Source: Aphanothece sacrum FPU1 (lineage in GTDB: Bacteria > Cyanobacteriota > Cyanobacteriia > Cyanobacteriales > Microcystaceae). Taken from it: DNA of 64,000 nucleotides. The stretch is from assembly GCF_003864295.1 (NCBI RefSeq), contig NZ_BDQK01000016.1, positions 248,001 through 312,000 of the forward strand. The letters are read 5' to 3'. The notes beneath the pieces are model-generated. The model was not told the DNA's origin. It worked only from the letters and a program-made list of their open reading frames with translations, and did not search any database. Within the stretch, counting starts at the first letter, position 1. Every line of letters begins with the position of its first letter. This document shows, piece after piece, positions 31,125-52,258 of the stretch. The translations under genes and the position numbers were made by a program.

Positions 31125-31310
31125 ATGAATAAACACAGCAAAAAACATAAATTTCAATTCTATTTTATCTATTTATTTATTAGTGTTAGTATAGTAATAA
31201 TTCTACCTTATATATTCTCTAAACCAATCATTGCCCAAACCTCAAAAGTTGAGCAAATTGCCCAATCTTCTAAAATTAAAGTTCAGAATCTCCAATTATT
31301 GGTTCTACAG
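31125..31310 (+). pseudogene. N-terminal part of a small exported/membrane protein, cut by an ISL3-type relic
   Basis: Starting at the ATG, MNKHSKKHKFQFYFIYLFIS introduces one strongly hydrophobic segment ending near AQTSKVEQIAQ, a signal-peptide-like pattern typical of cyanobacterial exported proteins. About 60 residues are present before the frame enters the inverted-repeat end of the mobile relic at 31303. No continuation is found after 31630. The family is not recognised. Confidence 0.4.
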
Positions 31311-31628
31311 GACTTATTATGCTAAAATGTTAGTAAATATTTGAGAAATTGCCAAAAATGAAGCGACAATTAACTAAACTTCTTAGTCTCCCAGGGTTAA
31401 TAGTAAAATCGCATAAACAATTAGAAAAAACTCTGATTTGAGAAATTCAAAATTGTTGGCTATTTTGAACAAAGAACAACTAACGCAGTAGTAGAAGGAA
31501 TTAATAACCGTTTAAAGGTTTTAAAACGTTGTGCTTTTGGGTTTAGAAATTTTGATAATTTCAAAAAAAGAGCCTTATTATTTTGGCATTTAACTGATAG
31601 TTTAGCATAATAAGTACTGTAGAACCCT
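31303..31628. mobile_element. Internally deleted ISL3-family element
   Basis: Ends are 26-bp inverted repeats starting GGTTCTACAG and ending TATTATGCTAAA (31303-31328), matched with one mismatch at 31603-31628. The inside keeps only the 3' end of a transposase gene. Flanking bases show no clear target duplication. The ends are about 85% identical to those of the 188-bp MITEs at 46335 and 52054. Confidence 0.75.
31468..31610 (+). pseudogene. ISL3-family transposase, C-terminal relic
   Basis: The frame reads EQRTTNAVVEGINNRLKVLK, RCAFGFRNFDNFKKRALLFW, HLTDSLA and a stop, which is the conserved C-terminus of ISL3 transposases and includes the catalytic glutamate in VVEGINNRLK. Upstream the frame is broken by stops. 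Confidence 0.8.
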
Positions 31629-46334: not shown

Positions 46335-46522
46335 GGTTCTACCATATAATTTATGCTAAATTATTACCAATAAAAGACCTTAACTCTTTAGAGTTAAGCT
46401 ATATAAACAAAGGTTGCCTACGCAACCTAGAATTTAGTCCCAAAAAGCGGACTTCGTTTTCATATAATAAGGCTTTAGCCTTTTATTAATTATTAGTTTA
46501 GCATACTAAGTCTGGTAGAACC
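46335..46522. mobile_element. ISL3-related MITE, copy A (188 bp)
   Basis: Terminal inverted repeats begin GGTTCTACCA and run to TATGCTAAA on both sides. Inside are, in order, hairpins TTAACTCTTTAGAGTTAA, GGTTGCCTACGCAACC and AGGCTTTAGCCT. No coding frame. Confidence 0.8.
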
Positions 46523-46666: not shown

Positions 46667-46866
46667 GTTTCCTCTGTATATGTGATGCTAAATTATCACA
46701 AATAATAACTCTTCATAGTAGGGATCAACGGTCGTTGACCCCTACTATACAAACAAAAGTTGCCTACGCAACCTAGAATGAGCGTCCGCGCTTGTCAGAC
46801 GTGGTTTTTATATAATTAGGCTTGAACGTATTATTAATTATCAGTTTAGCTTACTGAAATGTTCCG
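46667..46866. mobile_element. ISL3-related MITE, copy B (degenerate, palindrome swapped in)
   Basis: Shares TGATGCTAAATTATCA, GTTGCCTACGCAACCTAGAA, ATATAATTAGGCTT and TTATCAGTTTAGC with copies A and C. The outermost bases have decayed. The first hairpin is replaced by the unrelated palindrome at 46718-46745. Confidence 0.7.
46718..46745. repeat. GTAGGGATCAACGG palindrome inside MITE copy B
   Basis: GTAGGGATCAACGG with GTCGTTGACCCCTAC: one mismatch in a 28-bp palindrome. Confidence 0.85.
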
Positions 46867-46924: not shown

Positions 46925-47075
46925 TAAGTAGGTAGACAAAATTAATTACACAAAATTTGTAGGGGCGGGTTTTTTACATAAATCCATGATTCTCACAAAA
47001 AATTTCAATAAACCCGCCCTTACTACCTTTGTTACTCAACCATTACGACTATATCAAAACCCGCCCCGACTGTGC
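46925..47075. repeat. GGGCGGGTTT inverted repeat
   Basis: AAGTAGGTAGACAAAATTAA, TTGTAGGGGCGGGTTTTTTA and the opposing AATAAACCCGCCCTTAC and AAAACCCGCCCCGACTG. Near-identical in its first 70 bp to the copy at 17484. Confidence 0.8.
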
Positions 47076-51537: not shown

Positions 51538-52050
51538 TTATCTCTCTTGATTTTCATCTTGATTTAAAAGTATTTGTTTAAGTAAAGAGATAATCTGATT
51601 ATTTTCTATACTCATATTTTTTAGATCATTCTCAATCATTATAAGACGTGCATATAAATCTGAAATTGAAGGTTCTCTAACATTATTCTGTGTAGATTCA
51701 ATTATTGGTTGATGATTAAGTTTATTGGCTAAGCTTTCCCAACTATTAGCTTTAATGTCAAAGTATAATTTTGCCTCTCGTAATGTTTTATACTGTTGTT
51801 TGAGATTGTTAACTGTATATAAAATAGTCTCAGGAGATGAAGTGTCTTTGTCTAAGTCTTCATTAACCATATCAACAACTTCATCAATTAATTGATCATG
51901 ATTTTCTGCGATTTGAGCAGCAGCACCTAAAATACGAGAGGTGGCTTTAATTTGTATTTTTGTTTCTTGTTTAAGTTGATCAGCAATGGTGCGTATTTGT
52001 TCTGCCATTGATGATTTTTTCTGGTTTATAGGTGCTGACTTTTTATTCAT
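51538..52050 (-). CDS. Helical hypothetical protein, 170 aa
   Basis: MNKKSAPINQKKSSMAEQIR begins a 170-residue helical protein with TSRILGAAAQIAENHDQLID and VVDMVNEDLDKDT in the middle and a final coiled coil (NNQIISLLKQILLNQ). No known domain recognised. Its start codon is only 4 bp from the end of a MITE (52054), so its promoter is now MITE-derived or lies in the MITE. It probably pairs with the coiled-coil gene at 52259. Confidence 0.6.
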   Translation of the reverse strand: MNKKSAPINQKKSSMAEQIRTIADQLKQETKIQIKATSRILGAAAQIAENHDQLIDEVVDMVNEDLDKDTSSPETILYTVNNLKQQYKTLREAKLYFDIKANSWESLANKLNHQPIIESTQNNVREPSISDLYARLIMIENDLKNMSIENNQIISLLKQILLNQDENQER

Positions 52051-52053
52051 TTT

Positions 52054-52242
52054 GGTTCTTTCGTATATGTTATGCTAAATTATCATAAATAATAGAGCTT
52101 AACTCTAAAGAGTTAAGCTAGATAAACAAAGATTGCCTACGCAACCTAAAATTTAGTCCGCGCTCGTCGGACTTAGTTCTTGTAGAATCAGGCTTTAGCC
52201 TGTTACTAATTATCAATTTAACATAGTAAGTCCCGTAGAAGC
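52054..52242. mobile_element. ISL3-related MITE, copy C (189 bp)
   Basis: Left end GGTTCTTTCGTATATGTTAT then GCTAAATTATCA, matching copies A and B; internal hairpins TTAACTCTAAAGAGTTAA, GATTGCCTACGCAACC, GTCCGCGCTCGTCGGAC and AGGCTTTAGCCT; right end TTTAACATAGTAAGTCCCGT. It is inserted between two same-strand coiled-coil genes. Confidence 0.8.
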
Positions 52243-52258
52243 TTCATTTTTTCTTGAT

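Follow-up and report, generated by a model that had tools for sequence, protein, structure and literature searches.

What kind of element is the hairpin-rich repeat that begins at position 46335 of the window (the whole stretch of 64,000 nucleotides analysed here), and how did a chain of hairpins come to lie between the ends of an insertion sequence? The initial annotation had assigned three copies of it to an ISL3-related MITE family, and all three proved real, each matching the family model, with the middle one degenerate. We regard it as quite probable that the repeat is a composite non-autonomous element, in which ISL3 ends surround a gene-less form of a Y1 (HUH) transposon. The parts of the three copies, together with an ISL3 remnant found in the same window, are listed in Table 1.

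Table 1. Positions in the window of the three repeat copies, their parts and the ISL3 remnant
Feature	Position	Strand	Remarks
Internally deleted ISL3 element, MITE-like ends	31301–31626	+	PF01610 match 31443–31571 (genome 279443–279571), 7.3e-13
ISL3-type MITE copy 1	46335–46522	+	R1 family model 160.6 bits, positions 1–188 of 188
Copy 1, left ISL3-type terminal inverted repeat	46335–46360	+	GGTTCTACCATATAATTTATGCTAAA
Copy 1, palindrome A of module	46379–46398	+	CTTAACTCTTTAGAGTTAAG; R2 match begins at 46379
Copy 1, left arm of stem enclosing B and C	46399–46412	+	CTATATAAACAAAG
Copy 1, hairpin B	46412–46427	+	GGTTGCCTACGCAACC
Copy 1, hairpin C, eroded in copy 1	46437–46452	+	GTCCCAAAAAGCGGAC
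Copy 1, right arm of enclosing stem, mutated	46453–46467	+	TTCGTTTTCATATAA; R2 alignment marks non-standard pairs
Copy 1, palindrome D	46469–46482	+	AAGGCTTTAGCCTT
Copy 1, right ISL3-type terminal inverted repeat	46497–46522	+	TTTAGCATACTAAGTCTGGTAGAACC
Copy 2, degenerate ends	46667–46866	+	R1 46669–46856, 92.9 bits; R2 37.9 bits
Copy 2, foreign palindrome GTAGGGATCAACGGTCGTTGACCCCTAC, replacing part of hairpin A	46718–46745	+	
Copy 3, 8-bp target duplication, left	52046–52053	+	TTCATTTT
Copy 3	52054–52242	+	R1 146 bits, positions 1–186 of 188; R2 79.7 bits at 52098–52209
Copy 3, 8-bp target duplication, right	52243–52250	+	TTCATTTT

A dispersed family and its ISL3-type ends

The three copies are members of one dispersed family, here called MITE-1. 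In the genome from which the window comes (4.49 Mb in 20 contigs), a sequence-only model built on 27 aligned copies gave at least 153 matches, which is a lower bound because only 150 of 4350 candidates were scored, and a profile search of the stretches fetched from this genome gave 162 non-overlapping matches, fragments counted. When up to three mismatches were allowed, the end pattern of MITE-1 scored 148 matches on one strand of this genome and 142 on the other, as against 6 and 12 for a reversed control. The same genome holds a second ISL3-ended family, MITE-2, with B and C stems unlike those of MITE-1 and with ends and arms that can be aligned to them.

ISL3 transposition generates 8-bp target duplications. 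Among 65 two-ended copies (copy 2 of the window being left out of this test), the identity of the two flanks was clearly above that of permuted pairs at length 8 only (0.52 versus 0.39); the duplication was perfect over 8 bp in 12 of the 65 and reached at least 7 of 8 bases in 16, and no perfect duplication of 5–7 or 9–12 bp was found among them. No recognisable 8-bp duplication is present in the other 49. Copy 3 of the window is among the 12, with TTCATTTT perfectly repeated over 8 bp, and copy 1 has no target duplication, its flanks being equal at 2 of 8 bases. A related element family is found in genome G007, of another genus in the same taxonomic family, where 10 of 13 fetched copies (L446–L458) have perfect duplications; its right end shares 25 of 26 bases with an end of the ISL3 element L065 in G012, the gene of which is an open frame of 413 aa.

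The ISL3 remnant of the window had been noticed before and placed at 31303–31628, two bases away from its true position. Out of 22 fixed positions of the family ends, its own ends, GGTTCTACAGGACTTATTATGCTAAA and GGTTCTACAGTACTTATTATGCTAAA, share 21 and 20. The nearest to the remnant among the loci compared is L084, a near-full ISL3 element of another genus with an interrupted gene: one stretch of the remnant, aligned over 177 bases, has 86% identity to one end part of L084, and a second, aligned over 152 bases, has 81% identity to the other, as if the remnant had arisen from an ISL3 element by loss of the middle. The ends of L084 share 21–24 of 26 positions with the two consensus ends of the family. 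ISL3 matches were obtained in 32 of the 58 genomes searched, the genome of the window counted, and at 11 of 29 ISL3 loci of relatives (L065–L093) both ends agree with the family ends at 16 of 22 positions or more. In the genome of the window itself there are two PF01610 matches, one to the remnant and one to a fragment, and no intact ISL3 transposase was found in its 20 contigs, which may be incomplete. Elsewhere, the open-frame L065, one end of which is nearly identical to that of the G007 family, may be a candidate for an autonomous partner.

Because the ends are ISL3-like and the duplications stand out at 8 bp only, mobilisation by ISL3 is supported, and transposition of the whole unit in ISL3 fashion is well supported; the naming of the family as ISL3-related MITEs, with ISL3 as the mobiliser, can thus be retained.

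The four-hairpin module and its link to a Y1 gene

The interior of the repeat follows a shared plan, in the order palindrome A, CTAYACAAACNAAG, hairpin B, spacer, hairpin C, CTTNGTTTGTRTAG, palindrome D, which bears out its earlier description as a chain of hairpins; the two hairpins that had been named, GGTTGCCTACGCAACC and AAGGCTTTAGCCTT, are present in copy 1 as B and D. When family copies and free loci are aligned, the core of B reads ..GCCTNCGC.. and that of C ..GCGNAGGC... As hairpin C mirrors hairpin B and the two arms can pair with each other, the module is an imperfect inverted dimer, and a structure model matches it on both strands. GTAG or RTATAG stands beside palindromes A and D, as seen by eye, and the inverted-dimer form and dispersal, two of the traits of GTAG REPs and REPINs, are found in the module. 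In several copies of this genome, including copy 2 of the window, a palindrome like GTAGGGGTCAACGGCCGTTGACCCCTAC takes the place of part of hairpin A; it occurs in flanks too, so that the element harbours a further repeat of GTAG type. An inverted repeat, GTAGGGGCGGG ... CCCGCCCTTAC, was also seen by eye downstream of copy 2, at about 46959–47022 of the window.

The module also exists outside the MITE. Matches of the sequence-only model to the interior alone were found in five other genomes (G009, G044, G048, G050 and G054), and 11 of 12 such loci checked have no ISL3-like end, with at most 13/22 on both sides, the remaining one (L043) having a possible eroded end with 16/22 on one side; random windows average 10.9/22 and reached 15 once in 500. 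With the structure model (E≤1e-4, up to 12 candidates scored per genome), the module was detected in 56 of 291 cyanobacterial genomes and in 32 of 131 genera. A blastn search of plasmids gave no match to it.

In the genome of the window, the structure model gave at least 150 matches, both strands of a place being counted. Of 44 places inspected outside MITE-1, 11 have an ISL3-like end (at least 17/22) on one side or both; judged by eye, these are ten members of MITE-2 and L337, which is similar to the G007 family. An ISL3-like end is absent from the remaining 33, some of them lying in arrays, and a few (L359, L333, L334, L344 and L357) are enclosed by other inverted ends, in the case of L359 by a perfect 34-bp inverted pair, TAGGGGTTTAACACTGTTCATTGGTGTCAACTTA. 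The idea that modules always lie inside another MITE was rejected, most of 40 other module places or arrays in this genome being free of inverted flanking ends; among these 40, clear inverted flanks were seen at L333, L334 (144921), L344, L357 and L359, and flanks of ISL3 type at L358 and L360. Tandem arrays of modules were observed as well, with five at steps of 134–138 bp (L336), nine at 164 bp (L273) and several at 217 bp (L387).

Some free modules keep company with a transposase gene. In G009 a Y1_Tnp gene is placed between two modules, and its relative in the genome of the window, L224, has tandem modules on either side. The L224 protein measures 135 aa if read from the start that was chosen and 147 aa if read from the first TTG; in a search that may pass over the record of the window itself, the nearest named genome with this gene was a Crocosphaera metagenome bin (90% identity). 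A lone ISL3-type end (20/22) lies just outside this array at G000:C1:258967 (L224:1468), and no partner for it was found within the stretch. A close relative of the Y1 protein, defined by at least 50% identity over nearly the whole protein and thus excluding the partial matches in G277 and G084, was found class-wide in 12 genomes, 11 of which have modules as compared with 45 of the 279 others (Fisher p 6e-8); in 45 of the 56 module-bearing genomes the close gene was not found. Model matches lie beside 11 of the 12 close genes, matches up to E 0.1 being listed, and the exception, L277, is a miss of the model, though half-modules are visible there. Scores beside the genes are weak (about 20–30 bits), as is to be expected of half-modules.

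The next 18 relatives, all cyanobacterial and mostly 37–46% identical, have a match with E≤0.001 at L286, L290, L294, L298 and L299 and a weak one at L283, so that with 5 of 18 the link extends beyond the nearest group. In named genomes there are 28 close relatives (at least 48% identity, L366–L393, the fragment L394 being left out), and for 26 of them a module match with E≤0.01 lies no more than about 300 bp from the gene, the misses being L388 and L393; two of the close relatives belong to Chloroflexota bins (L390 and L392). More distant relatives (31–43%, L395–L445) have a match beside 1 of 51 genes, L395. A search of plasmids with the Y1 protein gave two distant matches.

In several lineages (L276, L280, L372 of Trichormus sp. 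NMC-1, L378, L382 and L385) the gene, as judged by eye, is inside one module, with B on one side of it and C on the other. Three further candidates for this arrangement, L272, L277 and L279, were rejected, the sides of the gene being a full module, incomplete or damaged. Inverted repeats bracket the gene (p≤0.01) in 23 of 28 close and 27 of 49 distant relatives, as against 4 of the 28 other Y1 genes and 1 of the 38 shifted windows, in a test that used mononucleotide shuffles, counted very short matches and had the gene end of L388 misplaced. Some of the bracketing repeats of distant relatives look like a hairpin followed by TGTAGC. Such bracketing is frequent where Bacteroidetes, Planctomycetes and Verrucomicrobia carry Y1 genes resembling subclass 1.2 (L396–L445), which is a lead rather than an established finding.

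Both Y1 proteins that were compared with curated models pass the NCBI IS200/IS605 model NF033573 (75.2 and 72.7 bits, cut-off 55) and match Pfam Y1_Tnp at 7.1e-25 and 2.4e-25. Classic RAYT identity was rejected for both, their scores with NF047646 being 27.8 and 33.9 bits against a cut-off of 80, and the tyrosine motif is YIKNQPQHH, not the Y---NP of RAYTs. With DHIH, WQ and YIKNQPQHH, the module-linked transposase has the motifs given for TnpA_Y1 subclass 1.2 and on this basis would belong to it; Y...Q..HH is found in 25 of the 28 close relatives and in 49 of the 51 distant ones. In the accessible part of PMC6006769 this subclass is characterised by DH[IV]H, WQ and Y---Q--HH, a median of 148 aa and occurrence in Cyanobacteria and Bacteroidetes, and is described as generally without terminal IS200 secondary structures, with 'no' in the REP column and as not IS-like. 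Since 26 of the 28 close relatives adjoin a module, this description does not hold for them, and the linkage contradicts the published lack of terminal structures for many cyanobacterial members.

Covariation, decay and alternative explanations

It had been claimed from the window copies that compensating changes keep the stems, and that this points to selection on structure rather than decay. In a cross-species alignment (A3) of 19 rows, made up of family copies and free modules, standard pairs occupy 85.9% of pair cells versus 72.8% after shuffling and 28–45% when slid, with the enclosing-stem pairing biased by the partial use of the arms as anchors for cutting the rows and the counts for palindromes A and D lowered by rows that are out of register. 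Hairpins B and C, which did not serve as anchors, are paired at 97% and 95%, and double changes occur at 23 of 35 pairs. Four of five covariation measures were reached by none of 500 shuffles; further pair types were not above the shuffles in these 19 rows (197 of 500).

Within the family, 136 of the 162 copies were used, the other 26 being too short or weak. Parsimony on their tree gave 20 compensating branches, six each in hairpins B, C and D, versus 2.6 (sd 1.6) in 100 simulations, none of which reached 20, and 1–4 when slid. There are also 192 breaking branches, and two of the 12 enclosing-stem pairs are formed in just 7% and 21% of the copies; as breaking branches exceed compensating ones about ten to one, the copies mostly decay after insertion. 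What stands of the claim is thus an excess of compensation beyond chance, in the family as well as between species, where covariation is strong; what needs qualifying is the contrast with decay, since within the family breaking prevails. Selection on structure would apply to DNA hairpins before their capture rather than to copies already inserted.

The whole-stem differences, shared D variants and rare flipped loops that were seen show that part of the apparent compensation may reflect exchange or hairpin-templated repair and not selection. Stem B is wholly different between the two ISL3-ended families (GGTTG/CAACC versus ACCCG/CGGGT), the flipped loop GCGTAGGC occurs in 2 of 136 MITE-1 copies and the D variant of MITE-2, AGACATAAGGTCT, in 15 of 136. 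That templated repair, stem swapping or gene conversion produced the compensation in the window family, selection playing no part, is possible, if on the unlikely side, but it would leave unexplained why different orders keep the architecture and why the module is tied to a single transposase subtype.

Covarying stems would also be expected if the module were an RNA element (a small RNA, terminator or mRNA stabiliser) kept for the host and spread secondarily by transposases, and according to the abstract of PMC3733652 transcription, and a role as RNA elements, is plausible for many REPs. This we consider improbable: the linkage to a transposase gene, the position of that gene inside the module and the tandem arrays all speak against it, the near-symmetry and the matches on both strands favour DNA, and a window scan with Rfam at gathering thresholds returned one tRNA only, no family reaching threshold in the MITE copies. 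A DNA structure recognised by the Y1 transposase is the better explanation.

The interior could instead be arbitrary filler of an ordinary ISL3 MITE, its hairpins palindromic by chance or through repeat insertion. Short ISL3-ended elements with an unrelated interior do exist (L047 and L057 of G056, ends 20–22/22, interior without a module match), from which it follows that ISL3 ends and core are separable, and most changes in the family do break stems, but the strong covariation and the recurrence of the same ordered module in other genomes, free of ISL3 ends and linked to a Y1 gene, make filler very hard to believe. Equally implausible is the suggestion that gene and modules are neighbours only through insertion into the same safe intergenic sites, for, even if both look mobile and arrays exist, several lineages have the gene at the same point of the module, between B and C, and when 28 other Y1 loci from eight genomes were examined only two held a module match (L206 and L219, both away from the gene), as did one of the 51 distant relatives.

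The composite element and known systems

The free modules, their linkage to the Y1 gene and the location of that gene between B and C are the reasons why the module looks like a gene-less Y1 element caught between ISL3 ends. The earlier statement that the interior is not transposase-derived is therefore correct as regards ISL3 and misses a probable derivation from the ends of a Y1/HUH single-strand transposon. In the composite that we propose, the outer 26–40 bp or so would be ISL3 ends and the core would comprise two inverted half-units, each with a palindrome (A or D) bearing a GTAG-like tag, an arm of about 13 nt and an inner hairpin (B or C), joined at the site that tnpA occupies in gene-bearing copies. 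A Y1 element with ends that fold as single strands would have given rise to gene-less dimers, one of which would then have been captured between ISL3 ends; the composite would have been moved and amplified, with 8-bp target duplications left behind, by a DDE transposase of the ISL3 family, for which no intact gene was found in this genome. The free core would most likely be recognised as a folded single strand by the Y1 transposase with subclass 1.2 motifs, and recognition of this kind would account for stems being kept while their sequence changes. We infer that the Y1 enzyme moves, or did so in the past, the module, and that capture took place just once and long ago, the subfamilies having diverged afterwards; in the ISL3 copies of today the core would for the most part be carried as a passenger.

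A wider proposal, to which we would give an even chance, is that the orphan subclass 1.2 owns mobile four-hairpin modules, with the gene between the halves when present, in about a fifth of the sampled cyanobacteria and some Chloroflexota bins, and look-alike repeats in Bacteroidetes, Planctomycetes and Verrucomicrobia; ISL3, and probably one or two further DDE transposons, would capture and amplify these modules, giving rise to elements that answer to two unrelated transposition chemistries. What was vaguely a structured MITE now has a testable origin, and a subclass described as lacking IS properties gains a concrete candidate substrate in many genomes. The results also suggest that REP-like hairpin repeats may spread in two ways, mobilised by a single-strand transposase of their own and carried along within DDE MITEs.

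The kinds of components are known: MITEs, REP dimers, Y1 transposases and, in the accessible part of PMC3733652, cyanobacterial GTAG-12, GTAG-15 and GTAG-16 repeats, with GTAG-15 dimers inside longer palindromes in A. variabilis. A module family tied to subclass 1.2 and packaged in DDE ends appears to be new within the open-licence literature, where the exact arm sequence was not found in any paper, GTAG-15 and GTAG-16 being compared by description only. Nezha, named in the same part of PMC3733652, is likewise a cyanobacterial MITE, and the likeness is one of description only.

GTAG REP dimers, REPINs and REPtrons, as portrayed in the accessible parts of PMC3733652 and PMC3116915, share with the module inverted palindrome dimers, a GTAG-like tag, a structured spacer, arrays and a nearby Y1 gene, whereas here each half has an extra inner hairpin, the gene lies between the halves and the transposase is not of the Y---NP type. 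TIRtrons and TIRYTs (PMC3733652, accessible part) also have a Y1 gene bracketed by long inverted repeats that are dispersed as well, but their transposases are probably of subclass 2.1 (PMC6006769, accessible part), while the one described here has subclass 1.2 motifs. With subclass 1.2 itself, as published in the accessible part of PMC6006769, the transposase shares DHIH, WQ, Y---Q--HH and an occurrence in cyanobacteria, yet there the subclass is generally without terminal IS200 structures, and its cyanobacterial members here are bracketed by a dispersed hairpin family. IS200/IS605 elements (subclass 1.1) have an HUH-Y transposase and hairpins near both ends in common with the gene-bearing modules, but these are single subterminal hairpins, in contrast with two hairpins per end in inverted symmetry. 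The ends of IS200/IS605 elements are not known to carry long inverted repeats. Finally, MITEs of the ISL3 family and internally deleted ISL3 elements share with MITE-1 the ISL3-like ends, the 8-bp duplications, the lack of a transposase and a high number of copies, and differ from it in that the core of MITE-1 is a defined module of another transposon class.
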